Program-made: the position numbers and the translations under genes
Part shown: one piece after another, positions 50,984 to 57,625 of the stretch
Numbering within the stretch: position 1 is the first letter of the stretch
Layout: each line of letters starts with the position of its first letter
Assembly (NCBI GenBank): GCA_024279915.1
Contig: JAJRRB010000019.1
Span: 1-64,000, forward strand
Source: Deltaproteobacteria bacterium
Lineage (GTDB): Bacteria; Desulfobacterota; Desulfuromonadia; Desulfuromonadales; BM103
Direction: 5' to 3'
DNA length: 64,000 bases
The notes under the pieces: model-generated
What the model saw: only the letters and a program-made list of their open reading frames with translations
Told to the model about the DNA's origin: nothing
Databases searched by the model: none

Positions 50984-51254
50984 TTTGATCTCAAAAAGAC
51001 AAAAAGTAACCCCGATGGGGCTATGCAATGATTAGAGTCAGTACAAAGTTTCTAGCATGGCAGGTCGAAAATCACAAGAGCATTCCCTATGAAACGGGGC
51101 TATGCCAGGTCAGGTTAAACCTGTAAAGAGGGCTCACACTTAAGTTGCTTCTGAGTGGAGGTCCTGCTGTTTTGTTTATATGTGTGAAATTGACGATACT
51201 GCTGTTATAGTCATAACTCTCGTTGTCTCTACCCTATTTTCCCAGGAGCCTGCC

Positions 51255-52148
51255 ATGAAAAAAGCTTTTCAACGATCCTCTCTCCTTCTAATTGCGATTC
51301 TTTTTGCAGCCATGAGCATTTCTGGTGTTGCTGCAGCTGACGAGACCCTGAATGATGCAGGCCTCTGGGCAGATGTTTCCGAAGATATCGATAACGCTCC
51401 AGGTTATGAAAACTATAAAGATAGCAAACGTAACTGGACTCTCAGTCTTGGCGTGGCCGGTGGTCTTTCGCCTGATTATGAGGGCTCAAACGATTACGAG
51501 ACGGGTTTTGGCCCTAATCTTGCGGGTACCTGGAAGGGCATCCTCTTCTTCAAAGGCAAGACCTTGGGTGCCAATGTTATCAATGAGAAAAACTTCAAAG
51601 TGGGTCCCATTCTGGCGTGGGCATCAGGACGTGATGATGATGACAACGATAAGCTGGAGGGTTTGGGTGATGTTGACAGCAGCATTGAAGCCGGTGGATT
51701 TGTTTCTTACCGGAATAAACCTTATCGTTTCAGGATGGAGGTCCGCCAGGATGTTAACTCTGGTCATGAGGGCGCTCTTGTCGAGATGAGCGCTGGCACA
51801 AGCCTGCCATTTACAAAGCCATTGGTCTTTGCCGCGATCAGCACAACCCTGGCGAGTGACGACTACATGGAGAGCTTCTTCGGCGTCAATTCGAAGCAGT
51901 CGATGAACTCCGGGCTGAAGAAATACAAAGCAGAAGCCGGATTCAAGGATGTCAAAATCTTTGTAACGGCTGGCTACCCGATTACCAACCGCTGGCGCAT
52001 CGGTGGCAAGATTGAATACAAAAGATTGGTAGGTGATGCGGCGGACCGTCCCATTGTTGATGACGAGAATCAATTCCTTGCCGGGTTCGGTCTCTCGTAC
52101 CACTTCGGCTCCAAGTATCTCCCAGAAGAACTTCAAGAACTTCAATAG
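51255..52148 (+). CDS. MipA/OmpV-family outer-membrane protein
   Basis: A 297-residue beta-barrel with a signal peptide (LLLIAILFAAMSISGVAAAD). The mature protein starts with an acidic stretch and the family-like GVAGGLSPDYEGSNDYETGF, and ends in a strand with a C-terminal LSYHFGSKYL. AGGAG precedes ATG 51255; an upstream frame from 51180 is rejected. MipA proteins scaffold murein hydrolases or act as porins. Confidence 0.85.
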   Translation: MKKAFQRSSLLLIAILFAAMSISGVAAADETLNDAGLWADVSEDIDNAPGYENYKDSKRNWTLSLGVAGGLSPDYEGSNDYETGFGPNLAGTWKGILFFKGKTLGANVINEKNFKVGPILAWASGRDDDDNDKLEGLGDVDSSIEAGGFVSYRNKPYRFRMEVRQDVNSGHEGALVEMSAGTSLPFTKPLVFAAISTTLASDDYMESFFGVNSKQSMNSGLKKYKAEAGFKDVKIFVTAGYPITNRWRIGGKIEYKRLVGDAADRPIVDDENQFLAGFGLSYHFGSKYLPEELQELQ

Positions 52149-52185: not shown

Positions 52186-52224
52186 TATTCAGCCCCATTC
52201 CCTATCTGGTCGTGGGGCTGAATA
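52186..52224. terminator. Hairpin between convergent mipA and DUF411 genes
   Basis: TATTCAGCCCCA (52186-52197) and TGGGGCTGAATA (52213-52224) are perfect 12-base inverted repeats. No T-run follows, so it may act in both directions with help from rho. Confidence 0.55.
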
Positions 52225-52250
52225 CGCAAAGCAACATGAGCAGAGCTGTT

Positions 52251-52718
52251 TCACTTCGGATAGGTGGCAAAAACCCTGGTCCTGCCCAACTTGTCAAAAG
52301 AAATCACTTTGTAAGGTTCTGATGCACCGTTCGGCATTTCCATGCCTGGCGATCCAACTGGCATTCCTGGCACACTTAACCCAACGATCTCTGGTTTTTC
52401 ATTGAGCATGCGCATGACTTCTTCGCTGGGCACATGGCCTTCTACTACGTAGCCATCAACGATGGCTGTATGGCAAGACTGAAGGTAAACTGGAATTTTA
52501 TATTGGGCTTTAATCTCAGAGACCTTGCTGGTGTTCTCTGCTTTGATGATTAAACCGGCCTCTTCCAGATGTTTGATCCAGCCGCCGCAGCAGCCTCAGC
52601 CAGGCGACTTGTAGACTTTGACTATCGTTGGCCTGATCTGGTCTTCTGCCAATGGTTGTGTCGCAAGAGACACGACCAAACCTACCGACATAAAAGTTGT
52701 TAAAAAAAGTCTGAACAT
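52251..52718 (-). CDS. DUF411 periplasmic protein, probable selenoprotein (TGA at 52596-52598)
   Basis: Reading through an in-frame TGA gives a complete 155-residue DUF411 protein: signal peptide (FLTTFMSVGLVVSLATQPLA), KVYKSPG-U-GCCGGWIKHLE, then SCHTAIVDGYVVEGHVPSEE and VGLSVPGMPVGSPGMEM, all family features. The TGA falls on the first Cys of the usual CGCC motif, giving UGCC. The start ATG at 52718 follows GAGGGAAC. A GC-rich stem is possible just 3' of the TGA but was not folded by computer. The family is thought to bind metals or act in redox. A point mutation of TGC to TGA is the alternative. Confidence 0.75.
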
Positions 52719-53227
52719 GAGTTCCCTCTCTCTTAGCTCGTTGCAAAATACTACTCTTGGTAAATTAATTTTCGTGATTTAGAACTGTCTGCTTGGGCAA
52801 AACATCCAGCATACGAGACACTATTTCCTGGCAGTTTACGCGAAAGACGTGGTTAAAGGCAAAACTCTCTAGAGTTAAAGGTTAAAATATCAACACACCG
52901 CGCCGTTGGATGATCGATAACGGGATGACCGCCAGCAATTTTTGTCGCAGATGTTTTGTCGAATCCACGGATATTGCCCGAGCCTCAACTGCTCTTGTTA
53001 AGAGAAATTGATTACGGTCTGTTGGCGACATTTCTGTTTGGGGCGGATTCTCCTTAAGTGGACGATAAGCGCTTGATATCCCATGTTTATAGGGTAATCT
53101 TGTCTACAGTAAACTTGGATCTTCATCTCAAGATGAAATCATGTAGGCAAGCCCAGAAATCAAACTCTCCATCACACTCTCATTTGTGTGTCCGAGCCTT
53201 ACTTTTTCAGTCAACAGGTGAGCAAAC
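52719..53227. other. 509-bp AT-richer intergenic region with a possible 49-aa ORF
   Basis: No gene is clear. A minus-strand ORF from 53031 to 52882 would encode 49 residues (MSPTDRNQFLLTRAVEARAI and onward, basic, ending LIF); it resembles nothing known. A 14-base inverted repeat AACTCT-CT-AGAGTT is at 52863-52876. The last 170 bases should contain the promoter of the second RND operon, but no strong hexamers were found. Confidence 0.35.
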
Positions 53228-54418
53228 ATGTCTAGGGTTAATTTATGCAAAAGCATTCTGACCTGGGTGGGCTGTCTGGCCATCGTCTCTATTCTAGCCA
53301 GTTGTGGCGAACCCGAAGAAGCACCCAAAACGCCACCTGTGATACCTGCCACGGTGATAACCATTGAGCCGCAGGACACTCCGGTCGCCTTCGAATTTGT
53401 CGGCCAGGCAGAAAGCTCCCGGCAGGTTGAGATCAGGGCGCGGGTCGACGGCTTCCTCGACAAACAGACTTATCAGGATGGCGCCCTGGTTCAGGCGAAG
53501 CAAGTTCTGTTCGAACTCGACAAAAAGCCCCTTCAAGCGACTCTGCAACAGGCTCAGGGCGAACTCGCCCTGTACCGGGCCCGCCTGACAACCGCCACGG
53601 CCAATCTGGGCAGAATCAGACCGTTGGCTGAGCAGGATGCAGTCAGCAAAAAGGATCTGGATGATGCCGTCGGCAGAGAGAGCGAGGCTCAGGCTTCCGT
53701 ACTCGCCGCCGAGGGTGCGGTACGCGAAGCGGAGCTTAAACTGAGCTATGCTACGATTTTCACTCCGGTCACCGGGCTTGCCAGCAAGGCGGACAAACAG
53801 GAGGGCAGTTATATCCCCACCGGTCAGAACAGCTTGCTCACCTATGTCGCCCAACTCGACCCGATCTGGGTCAACTTCAGCGTCTCGGAAAACCAGCTGC
53901 TGAGTGGTCGGCAACAAGAGGCTGTCGGACTATTAGTCATGCCTGCAGAAGAAAAATTTGTTGTCGAGGTGGTTTTTGCTGATGGCTCGACGCACCCTTA
54001 CAAAGGGCATGTCAACTTTGCGGAGCCTTCAGTCGATCCGGAGACCGGTACCCTGCTGATCCGTGCCGAACTTGCCAACCCGGAAGCGAGTATGCGCCCA
54101 GGCCAGTTTGTCCGGGTTCGCTTGTATGGCGCAAGCCGTCCCAACGCGATTCTCGTACCGCAAACCGCAGTCCTGCAGGGAGCCAAGGGACACTTTGTCT
54201 GGGTCCTGAACAAAGAAAGTAAGGCCGAGGTTCGGGCCATTGAGACCGGATCCTGGCACGGTAACGACTGGTTTATTGTCAGTGGTTTGACAGCAGGGGA
54301 CCTGGTGGTGGTCGACAATCTGCTGAAAATGTCGCAGGGCGTATCAGTCAAAAACACCCCACAGAAAGATCAACAGAAGCAGACGGCAATAGAAAAACCT
54401 GCCGAAAAACCGGAATAG
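53228..54418 (+). CDS. RND efflux membrane-fusion lipoprotein
   Basis: A 396-residue AcrA-type adaptor. The lipobox LASC places the lipid on Cys26. The lipoyl region (EIRARVDGFLDKQTYQDGAL), the helical hairpin (~residues 100-165) and the beta-barrel follow, with YIPTGQNSLLTYVAQLDPIWVNF typical of the AcrA group. The tail is Lys/Glu-rich. First gene of the second efflux operon; the RND gene starts 12 bases later. Confidence 0.95.
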   Translation: MSRVNLCKSILTWVGCLAIVSILASCGEPEEAPKTPPVIPATVITIEPQDTPVAFEFVGQAESSRQVEIRARVDGFLDKQTYQDGALVQAKQVLFELDKKPLQATLQQAQGELALYRARLTTATANLGRIRPLAEQDAVSKKDLDDAVGRESEAQASVLAAEGAVREAELKLSYATIFTPVTGLASKADKQEGSYIPTGQNSLLTYVAQLDPIWVNFSVSENQLLSGRQQEAVGLLVMPAEEKFVVEVVFADGSTHPYKGHVNFAEPSVDPETGTLLIRAELANPEASMRPGQFVRVRLYGASRPNAILVPQTAVLQGAKGHFVWVLNKESKAEVRAIETGSWHGNDWFIVSGLTAGDLVVVDNLLKMSQGVSVKNTPQKDQQKQTAIEKPAEKPE

Positions 54419-54430
54419 ATCGAGGTTCTT

Positions 54431-57400
54431 ATGCTTTCACACTTTTTTATCGATCGTCCGATTTTCTCCGCAGTCATCTCGATCGTCATTATGATCGCTG
54501 GTGGAGTGGCTCTGTACGGCCTGCCGATCGCCCAGTATCCGGAGATTACTCCACCACAGATTCAGGTCTCGGCGACATATCCAGGTGCCAGCGCCGAAGT
54601 TGTGTCGCAGAATGTCGCTTCGCCAATTGAGCAGCAGGTTAATGGTGCCGACGACATGATCTACATGTACTCAACCAGCTCATCCACCGGCAACATGACA
54701 CTCAATATCTTCTTCGATATCGGTCGCGAACCCGACTTGGCCCAGGTCGATGTACAGAATCGGGTCAATCTGGCCCTACCGCAGCTGCCGCAGGCGGTCT
54801 CGGCCCAGGGGGTGCAGATCAAAAAAGTCTCGGCCACTTTCCTGATGGTGCTGGCCGTCTATTCTCCCGATGAGCGCTTCGATTCGACCTATGTCGCCAA
54901 CTACACCAATCTCTATGTCCTCGATGCCATCAAGCGTATCCCAGGGGCTAACCAGGCAGCGATCCTGGGGACCCCGGATTATGCCATGCGGCTCTGGATC
55001 AAGCCGGATCGCATGGCCCAGCTCGGCATTACCACCCGTGACATAGTCAGTGCGGTGCAGGCACAAAACGAGCAGTTCGCCGTCGGTCGTATTGGTCAGC
55101 CTCCCAACGATGACAAAGTCATGATGACCTTCCCGGTGACCACCAAGGGCCGATTGACCACTCCGGAGGAATTCGAGAACATCATCCTGCGCACTTCCTC
55201 CAGGGGCGCCGCAATCGTCAGACTGAAAGACGTCGGCAGTGCCGAACTTGGTGCCAAGGACTACTCTGTACGCACCCGCTACAACGGCAAGACCGCGACC
55301 CTGATCGCAGTCTACCAGCAGCCTGGTGCAAATGCCCTGCAAGTCAGTGAAGATGTCATTAGCACGCTGGCCGAACTCGGTGAAAGTTTCCCCGACGGCA
55401 TGGCGTATGGCATTGCTCTCGACACCACTGATTTTGTGCGTGCTTCCATAAAAGAGGTCATCACTTCCTTCTTCATGGCCTGCGGTCTGGTCATCCTGGT
55501 GGTGCTGGTTTTTCTCGGCAATTTGCGCTCAACCCTGATCCCGATCATGGCAGTACCGGTTTCAATCATCGGTACTTTTGTCGGTATGCAGATGTTTGGC
55601 TTTTCGATCAACATGCTGACCCTGTTCGGCCTGGTTCTGGCGATTGGTATCGTCGTTGATGATGCCATCGTCGTTATGGAAAATGTCGAACGCAATATGG
55701 ATGAGTTCGGTCTGTCGCCAAATGCCGCGGCCAAAAGAGCGATGGACGAGGTCACCGGCCCGGTTGTTGCCACGACCCTGGTGGTGCTTGCGGTCTTTGT
55801 CCCGGTCGCTTTCCTGGGTGGCATTACCGGCGAGCTTTATAAACAGTTTGCCATCACCATTTCCATCTCGGTCTTCTTCTCCAGCATTGTTGCCTTGACC
55901 CTGTCACCGGCTATGAGCGCCCTGATCATGAAACCAGGCATGCAGAAAAAAGGCTTTTTTGTCTGGTTCGACAAGCTTTTTGACAAAGCTACCGACGCTT
56001 ATATCTTCGGTGTCCGTCTGGCAATCAAGCGCGTCCTGATTTCATCCGTTTTCTTTATCGCCATCCTCGCTTGTATCTTGGGGTTGTTCCGCATCGTGCC
56101 GGGCAGCTTTGCCCCATCAGAAGACATGGGCTACTTGTACGGTTTGTACGTTCTTCCAGACGGGGCCAGCCTTGATCGCACCAGCGATGTCGGCGCGCAG
56201 GCCGGACAGATCCTCATGGACCACCCGGCGGTCAAGGATGTCGCGACCTTTGACGGCTATAGCCTGCTCGACAGCCAGCTCAAGAGCAACGCCGGTCTCC
56301 TTTTCGTCTCATTTAAAGATTTTTCCGAACGCAGTGAGGAGGAGCTCCAGGCTCCTGCCGTTATTGCCAAGACCGGTGCCCAGATGATGGGAATTCGCGA
56401 AGGTTTTGCCATGCCGATCAATCCGCCGCCGATCCCCGGCCTGGGAACCACTGGCGGCTTCGAATTCTGGATTCAGAGTCAGGGTGATGGCACAATTCAA
56501 CAGCTTGATGCAATCGTCAGGGATTTTATTGCCAAGGCTAAAGACAGAACGGAGCTGGGTGGCTTGAGTTCTACGATCAACGCTTCCTCCCAGCAGTTAC
56601 TGGTGGAGCTTGATCGGGAGAAAGCTGAGGTTATGGGGGTTCCGGTGGAGGACGTCTATGACGCTCTGCAAACCCTGTTCGGATCGCTCTATGTGAGCCA
56701 GTTCAATCGCTACAGCCGTCTCTGGTAGGTCATTGTCCAGGCCGAAGCCCAATACCGTACTCGCCCGGAAGATATTGAAAAGGTCTATGTCCGCAACCGT
56801 AGCGGCGTGATGGTACCGCTCTCATCAGTCGTAAGCATGAAATACGTGCCTGGGCCAGATCTGGTCACCCGTTTCAATAACTTTCCGGCAGCAAAAGTCA
56901 CCGGTGGTCCTGCGCCAGGGTTCAGTTCGGGCCAGGCATTGAGTGCTATGGAAGAGTTGGCCAAAGAGGTGCTTCCCGCCGGTTACAGTTTTACCTGGTC
57001 AGGCCAGGCCTACGAGGAGAAAAAATCAGGCAGTGCGTCATTCTTGGTCTTTGTCTTCGGTATGATCCTGGTCTTCCTGATTCTGGCCGCCCAATATGAA
57101 TCCTGGTCGCTGCCGATTGCTATCATGATGGCCATCCCTTTCGCTCTGTTTGGGGCACTGATCGCGATCTGGCTACGTGGCATCGAAAACGAGGTCTATT
57201 TTCAGATCGCCATGGTCACCCTGATTGCGCTGGCCGCCAAAAACGCGATCCTGATTGTCGAATTTGCGGCGATCAAACGTGAAGAAGGACTCTCGGTTTA
57301 CGATGCTGCGGTAGAAGCTGCCCGTCTGCGTCTACGGCCAATCTGCATGACCGCATTTGCGTCGATTCTGGGAACCGTACCGCTTGCGATTGCCAGCGGT

Positions 57401-57625
57401 GCTTCGGCTAATAGCCGACACTCCATCGGCACCGGTTTTATTGGCGGAATGACTGGAGCCACGCTGATTGCGGTCTTTCTGATCCCGCTCTTCTACTGGA
57501 TGCTGCAGAGCATGAGTGATAAGTATTTTGGCGGCAAGCAGCAACCGCCACCGGACAGCCTCAAGCAGCCTTCAACAGAGCAACCTGCAACAGCAATTAA
57601 GACCGGGGAGGCGCACGATGAATAG
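54431..57625 (+). pseudogene. AcrB-type RND permease with in-frame TAG
   Basis: A 1064-codon AcrB-like transporter. The N-terminus is SHFFIDRPIFSAVISIVIMI, the TM4 proton-relay reads LAIGIVVDDAIVVMENVERN with the Asp-Asp pair, and the C-terminal half has TLIALAAKNAILIVEFAAIK. At 56726-56728 the frame has TAG, preceded by SQFNRYSRLW and followed at once by VIVQAEAQYRTRPEDIEKVY. In AcrB-type pumps the corresponding residue is Gln, so CAG to TAG fits exactly. The upstream ORF is 765 residues, the remainder is about 300. Both parts keep normal coding sequence, so the change is recent or the codon is suppressed. Confidence 0.85.

Follow-up and report, generated by a model that had tools for sequence, protein, structure and literature searches.

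The DUF411 gene described here, in which an in-frame TGA stands in place of a conserved cysteine codon, very probably encodes a real, conserved and authentic selenoprotein, whose family is missing from the catalogue of 119 prokaryotic selenoprotein families. That the UGA is read as selenocysteine (Sec, U) in a CopG-type protein is held with high confidence, in the absence of any protein or selenium data. The gene is located in the window, by which is meant the whole stretch of 64,000 nucleotides that was analysed. The original prediction of a probable selenoprotein is supported; it had given neither the strand, nor the identity with CopG, nor the breadth of the Sec form. The gene possesses the following features.

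52251 to 52718, minus strand: DUF411/CopG-type gene, 155 amino acids with TGA read as U (Pfam PF04214; fold match to CopG 6WJE/6WIS).
52724 to 52728, minus strand: GAGGG, ribosome-binding-like, 5' of the ATG (from the sequence).
52647 to 52718, minus strand: signal-peptide-like N-terminus, residues 1-24, MFRLFLTTFMSVGLVVSLATQPLA (judged by eye, without a prediction program).
52596 to 52598, minus strand: in-frame TGA, residue 41, first position of the UGCC (CGCC) motif (from translation; the same codon in 9 of 9 genes from 98 related genomes).
52587 to 52598, minus strand: U-G-C-C motif, residues 41-44 (from translation; U/C41, G42, C43 and C44 invariant in a 42-row alignment of TGA forms).
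52470 to 52475, minus strand: Cys82-His83, conserved CHT motif (invariant in the 42-row alignment).
52341 to 52364, minus strand: GMP..GSPGM segment with Met119 (52364-52362) and Met126 (52343-52341), candidate metal ligands (both invariant in the 42 rows).

Translation runs from the ATG at 52718-52716 to a TGA stop at 52253-52251 and gives the product MFRLFL...VYKSPG-U-GCCGGW...TYPK with only one internal TGA. The Pfam DUF411 model (PF04214) matches residues 79-126 with an E-value of 1.1e-26 and 92.7 bits against a cut-off of 27, and NCBIfam models gave no match to the protein up to an E-value of 1. A search of the whole source genome returned this gene as its single DUF411 match. Translation and homologues bear out the earlier claim that the TGA lies at the first Cys of CGCC with DUF411 family sequence on both sides, and the signal peptide claimed with it is found as a signal-peptide-like N-terminus, from which export of the protein is inferred.

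Conservation of the TGA was observed in other genomes and across phyla. Three whole-genome searches did not use TGA as a criterion; the source genome and the two centre genomes, which are chosen carriers, are counted in them. Among 98 related whole genomes, a protein query identified nine DUF411 genes (49-99% identity, the window's own included), each with one TGA in the context PG-U-[GS]CC. The second search covered 297 genomes of the phylum to which an acidobacterial carrier (G102) belongs and gave 31 matches, including a single partial one of low strength; 12 genes contained one TGA while 18 contained no stop. These 12 include the centre genome and six genomes already present in the pattern scan described below. 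The third covered 274 genomes from the class of a betaproteobacterial carrier (G133) and gave 73 matches, 72 without a stop and one, the centre genome itself, with a TGA. Altogether, the 22 interrupted genes (9 + 12 + 1), nine of which come from the window's order, each contain a single TGA, with neither TAA nor TAG, indicating that the TGA is not a chance mutation, as had been argued from its position alone. Cysteine occupies the site in all uninterrupted genes that were read, namely those of 18 of 18 genomes in the G102 sample and 29 of 72 in the G133 sample (47 distinct sequences). Among 297 genomes from the window's own phylum, the window's gene was the sole match at an E-value of 0.001.

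A pattern scan for the motif with TGA yielded at least 115 loci, of which at least 76 are DUF411 (74 confirmed by motif, L055 and L125 by eye). Because the pattern demanded a TGA, the evidence from these loci lies not in the codon but in the family sequence that flanks it on either side. Among the matches listed, 70 of the 74 motif-confirmed loci remain open as far as a stop codon, the other 4 being truncated at a sequence end, and 39 loci proved not to be DUF411, 14 of these in Achromobacter. The available sequence ends within L055, and L174, which contains N, was missed by the motif filter and is a TGA form when read directly. Five loci (L047, L078, L091, L130 and L131) repeat relatives from the 98-genome search and are counted once among the 82 distinct TGA forms listed. 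Homologues with TGA at the same Cys, which the original prediction had proposed to look for, thus exist both in related genomes and in other phyla: among the matches listed, the TGA form is distributed amongst more than 80 bacterial species and about ten phylum-level groups. Carriers are labelled Acidobacteriota, Gemmatimonadota, Rokubacteria, Methylomirabilota, Tectomicrobia, Chloroflexota, Deltaproteobacteria, Desulfuromonadales, SAR324, Beta- and Gammaproteobacteria, and Acidimicrobiia; since most are metagenome assemblies, these labels may err.

Several individual loci deviate from the common pattern. In L016 (genome G008) Ser replaces Gly, giving U-S-C-C. L125, labelled Anaerolineales, possesses the TGA motif and soon loses its frame, and may be a decaying copy or an assembly error; both the total of 76 and the selB tally below include it. 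L064, L081, L089 and L123 begin, as judged by eye, with twin-arginine-like signals, so that Tat export in the folded state is possible for some members. DUF411 matches were also encountered in two phage records and in 3453 plasmid records (any form, TGA not considered), the latter annotated, among the matches listed, as DUF411, hypothetical or metal-binding protein, or not at all.

The sequence 3' of the TGA is under purifying selection. In this part the window's gene differs from its nearest relative (L013) by 9 synonymous and 12 nonsynonymous changes (pS 0.13, pN 0.047) and from the next two with pS of 0.37 and 0.49 and pN of 0.10 and 0.11; pS exceeded pN in 10 of 10 pairs. Next to no credence can therefore be given to a pseudogene or sequencing error, in which the TGA would be a nonsense mutation or miscall and the gene either dead or normally furnished with Cys. 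Another in-frame stop (TAG) in the nearby RND pump gene does point to some damage or error in the assembly, but the low pN against pS is at odds with a dead gene, as is the length of 109-124 amino acids after the motif in 78 of the 82 distinct TGA forms listed (the other four being cut by an end). The recurrence of the same TGA in all nine genes of the related genomes and in tens of species from other phyla makes a sequencing error very unlikely, and not one of the 22 interrupted genes carries a TAA, a TAG or a second TGA.

The machinery needed for a Sec reading was found in the source genome, which is 98% complete in 99 contigs. A tRNA-Sec gene on contig C8 scored 70.9 bits, in agreement with ARAGORN, and is adjoined by yedF; a second tRNA-Sec match of 48.2 bits was rejected as tRNA-Trp (ARAGORN). 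The genes selA, selB and selD stand in a row on contig C17, so that selA, selB, selC and selD, which had been named as a check, are all present. The selD frame (L205:10528-11595, C17) itself contains one TGA, just before AAKMAPGPL, at the Sec/Cys position of SelD, and this provides a second Sec codon, of a known kind, in the source genome.

Across genomes with the TGA form, selB exceeded the cut-off in 68 of 81 (43/50, 20/26 and 5/5 in the three sets) and was below it or absent in 13, seven of them labelled Acidobacteriota. Five of the seven selB-lacking genomes of the 50-genome set possess a tRNA-Sec of at least 51.8 bits; the other two, G116 and G125, have no selB over the cut-off and no tRNA-Sec at an E-value of 1e-7. 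Among the six selB-lacking genomes of the 26-genome set, G737 carries, at the end of one contig, a partial selB that stays under the cut-off, and G744, apparently the same genome as G059, has neither selB over the cut-off nor a tRNA-Sec match. Of eight related TGA-form genomes, six contain a tRNA-Sec of at least 69 bits, and no convincing one was detected in G008 (a Trp-like match only) or G059. In Gammaproteobacteria (GTDB sense, betaproteobacteria included), selB was identified in 6 of 7 TGA-form genomes versus 6 of 72 with the uninterrupted form (Fisher p 2e-5), the two groups having been sampled in different ways. In the Acidobacteriota sample it was present in 12 of 12 TGA-form genomes, 12 of 18 Cys-form genomes and 16 of 20 genomes picked from the sample as lacking DUF411 (TGA versus Cys, p 0.057); as selB is common in the last two groups, the test is weak in that phylum.

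The incomplete distribution of selB leaves some room for UGA being reassigned or misread here, as Trp, as Cys or by near-cognate readthrough, and not as Sec. Such a reading is considered very improbable, however, as TGA terminates 27 of the 62 stop-to-stop frames of at least 200 codons in the window, and the DUF411 gene itself, and is thus a stop in this organism; the site corresponds in 47 distinct uninterrupted homologues to a Cys, always the same one; and Sec machinery accompanies the TGA form in Gammaproteobacteria. Sec insertion at the UGA is accordingly the preferred inference. UGA-Sec decoding competes in general with termination, and a variant of the Sec reading is conceivable in which the codon serves as a regulatory stop, yielding Sec only if selenium is available and ending translation if it is not, with the level of readthrough as the signal. 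Beyond this general competition nothing specific speaks for the variant, and the terminated product would be a 40-amino-acid peptide with a signal peptide but without any conserved Cys, His or Met; it is regarded as improbable.

A SECIS hairpin after the TGA had also been proposed as a check on Sec insertion, and one candidate was located.

52565 to 52581, minus strand: candidate SECIS hairpin CUGGAU-CAAAC-AUCUGG, loop 20 nt after the UGA (register covarying in 57 TGA forms; own fold not significant).

Bacterial SECIS elements have 16-37 nt between UGA and loop and a G in the first two loop positions. The family was analysed with 57 of the 82 distinct TGA forms and 44 of the 47 Cys forms, after removal of sequences under 66 nt in length and of those at least 85% identical across 66 nt. 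A first register, chosen by eye, showed little excess pairing and was abandoned; the register reported was picked from the same data by a scan of all registers. In the 57 TGA forms this one register stands out, with a combined z of 5.8 against 3.3 for the runner-up; its signal comes mainly from codon positions 5.3-11.1 (z 5.0), 5.2-11.2 (4.6) and 7.1-9.3 (3.4), and it places the loop 20-21 nt after the UGA. It was the best in 17 of 20 random halves, with a median rank of 1 in the other halves, and is absent from the Cys forms, where it lies outside the top five. With the structure fixed, 78.4% of cells in the TGA forms are paired, a value not reached in any of 500 shuffles, and slid versions attain at most 53.4%; 21 double-changed cells were counted versus 9.3 expected, and the covariation score was 0.203 versus 0.132, a slide of -2 coming close with 0.187. 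Two of the five measures, pair count and pair types, were not above shuffles (417/500 and 57/500 as high). The Cys forms under the same fixed structure show 64.9% paired and no excess, 369 of 500 shuffles being as high. All of these statistics are inflated by the relatedness of the sequences.

Other measures are less distinctive. A loop G occurs in 41 of 57 TGA forms, and also in 26 of 44 Cys forms. Relative to synonymous-codon shuffles, folding energies over 45, 54 and 63 nt gave mean z values of -0.71, -0.51 and -0.47 in 77 TGA forms and of -0.92, -0.91 and -0.34 in 16 Cys forms, similar values, so that folding energy does not separate the two. Mean hairpin energies of -9.45 against -5.08 kcal/mol are uncorrected for G+C and are not counted as proof. 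RNAalifold returned only 2 pairs for the family, the register is broken in L015 to L020 from the window's order, and Rfam gave no match in 52200-52900 with E-values up to 1. The window's own hairpin has a 6-bp stem and a loop, CAAAC, without G in its first two positions, its fold energy is not significant, and a longer stretch after the UGA folds otherwise. The proposed hairpin is therefore upheld only in part: a SECIS-like element of the TGA-form family is well supported by covariation, but that the short stem in the window's own gene is such an element is not proven, and any role of the hairpin remains inferred.

A phylogenetic tree was constructed from 126 rows (79 TGA, 47 Cys) and 124 columns. 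It is poorly resolved, with 57 of 123 inner branches open. Parsimony requires at least 14 changes of form, of which 3 are forced by well-supported branches, suggesting that several switches between Cys and Sec are likely, in a number that is not known. TGA forms from Chloroflexota join the window's clade with an SH-aLRT support of 95, a grouping that suggests that the Sec form has passed from one phylum to another. L166, from an acidobacterial genome (G603), has the Cys form, sits on a long branch within a clade of TGA forms and may represent a reversion from Sec to Cys.

As to the identity of the protein, a PDB sequence search up to an E-value of 1 gave 6WIS/6WJE, labelled CopG, as sole match (8.8e-32). 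An AlphaFold model, with Cys modelled for Sec, has a pLDDT of 92 and matches CopG 6WJE/6WIS with an E-value of 1.8e-16, a TM-score of 0.94 to the target and 40-41% identity over 126-127 columns; the next fold matches are of thioredoxin type and weak (E 0.006 and up). The protein as modelled thus has the thioredoxin-like CopG fold. The accessible part of PMC7558416 describes CopG as a thioredoxin-like protein with a copper cluster whose ligands come from a CxCC motif and two Met, and links it to copA, cusCBA and multicopper oxidase genes; in the accessible part of PMC6444534, a DUF411 protein of Pseudomonas aeruginosa is among the copper-responsive proteins. In the 42-row alignment, made from 41 of the 70 uncut pattern genes and the window, the invariant residues are U41, G42, C43, C44, W47, C82, H83, M119 and M126. 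Accordingly, none of the presumed cluster-binding positions is lost, the first ligand having Se in place of S, and M119 and M126 are inferred from sequence comparison to correspond to the ligand Met of CopG.

The neighbourhood of the gene is less informative.

51180 to 52148, plus strand: MipA family protein, convergent with the DUF411 gene (Pfam MipA 4.4e-51; not claimed as part of the system).
53228 to 56728, plus strand: RND efflux pump genes, a membrane-fusion protein and an AcrB-type pump ending at TAG, divergent (Pfam; not claimed as part of the system).

The fusion protein matches HlyD_D23 (CusB or HlyD; 4.4e-17), with CusB_dom_1 below its cut-off, and its metal cannot be told; the pump matches ACR_tran (9.1e-224). 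The pump gene (54431-57625) is split by one in-frame TAG at 56726-56728, this one stop agreeing with the earlier remark that the four other in-frame stops of the window are TAA or TAG, and a second open frame with pump-like sequence follows from 56807; whether this is a pseudogene or an assembly error is not decided. In L030, a PCYCGC-motif protein (PF13798) is encoded 3' of a TGA-form DUF411 gene, and PF13798 figures in the table of selenoprotein families in the accessible part of PMC13188914.

A copper role for the protein is considered probable, with appreciable doubt remaining. The selenoprotein might instead be no copper protein at all but a general exported thiol-disulfide oxidoreductase of the thioredoxin-like superfamily, which is thought unlikely without being dismissed. 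Thioredoxin-type folds do come next, weakly, among the fold matches; a thioredoxin-like gene follows the DUF411 gene in L035; no clear copper gene adjoins the window's gene; and clustering of 384 ORFs, from a crude ORF caller, revealed no neighbourhood common to the family, the largest clusters covering 7 loci. CopG is, however, far closer in both fold and sequence, the third Cys, C82-H83 and both Met do not vary in the 42-row alignment, and an E1-E2 ATPase with a His-rich start adjoins the DUF411 gene in L054.

For the Sec-containing CopG-type protein, the following mechanism is considered the most likely. tRNA-Sec and SelB would insert Sec at the UGA, replacing the first Cys of CGCC, and the protein would be exported and then fold, like CopG, into a thioredoxin-like domain in which a copper cluster is held by the CxCC motif together with two Met. 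The selenol, being more reactive than a thiol, would act as both redox nucleophile and copper ligand, and the protein, as part of copper handling in the periplasm under low oxygen, would cycle either electrons or Cu(I)/Cu(II). The proposal of a selenol nucleophile and ligand is drawn from the retention of the cluster ligands and from the first CxCC position being, by inference from the family, the place of the nucleophilic Cys in thioredoxin-like folds; copper binding by the Sec form and its redox role are both inferred. A more specific idea, offered only tentatively and with more doubt than belief, is that Sec is a ligand of a multinuclear copper cluster, with Se bridging Cu in the CopG cluster as a Se-tuned redox centre, switched with Cys several times and used in many phyla for handling copper at low oxygen.

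Selenoprotein genes are often cut short or missed by ordinary annotation. Earlier doubt that DUF411 was a listed selenoprotein family proved justified, as DUF411/PF04214 is absent from the table of 119 prokaryotic families in the accessible part of the May 2026 review (PMC13188914). A full-text literature search did not find DUF411, PF04214 or CopG tied to a selenoprotein; COG3019 and selenocysteine co-occur in one paper, on Tat export (PMC3305326), and DUF411 goes unmentioned in the available parts of PMC9312934, PMC12013277 and PMC2398784 that deal with DUF or new families. According to the accessible part of PMC13188914, Deng et al. 2026 reported further selenoprotein candidates in groundwater MAGs. 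A prior mention there is not excluded, and several TGA-form carriers come from groundwater. If the Sec reading is true, a selenoprotein family present in more than 80 sampled species of about ten phylum-level groups would be added to the table of 119. Sec usually replaces catalytic redox cysteines, and its position here thus singles out, in CopG, the first cysteine of CxCC as the reactive residue. This is relevant to how CopG acts on copper, a question that is still open. The protein may also provide a natural selenium ligand of a copper cluster, a possibility that is directly testable.

The listed thioredoxin-type selenoproteins have Cys homologues. Like the window's protein, the UxxC/UGC selenoproteins listed in the accessible part of PMC13188914 (thioredoxin, DsbG-like and the UGC-containing TlpA family) carry Sec in a Cys-type redox motif within a thioredoxin-type domain, but they belong to different families, the window's protein being distinguished by U-G-C-C together with a distant CHT cysteine. 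The same part of that source lists Sec in metal-handling proteins, namely a CopZ-family 2Fe-2S protein, a mercuric transport protein and the SO_0444 Cu/Zn efflux transporter, whose domain families are others and none of which is DUF411. CopG (6WIS/6WJE; DUF411, PF04214) has Cys where the window's protein has Sec, and is known for a tetranuclear copper cluster and for copper resistance, neither of which has been demonstrated for the window's protein, whose copper binding in the Sec form is only inferred; yet the two share the same family, the same fold, the same motif and the same pattern of Cys and Met.
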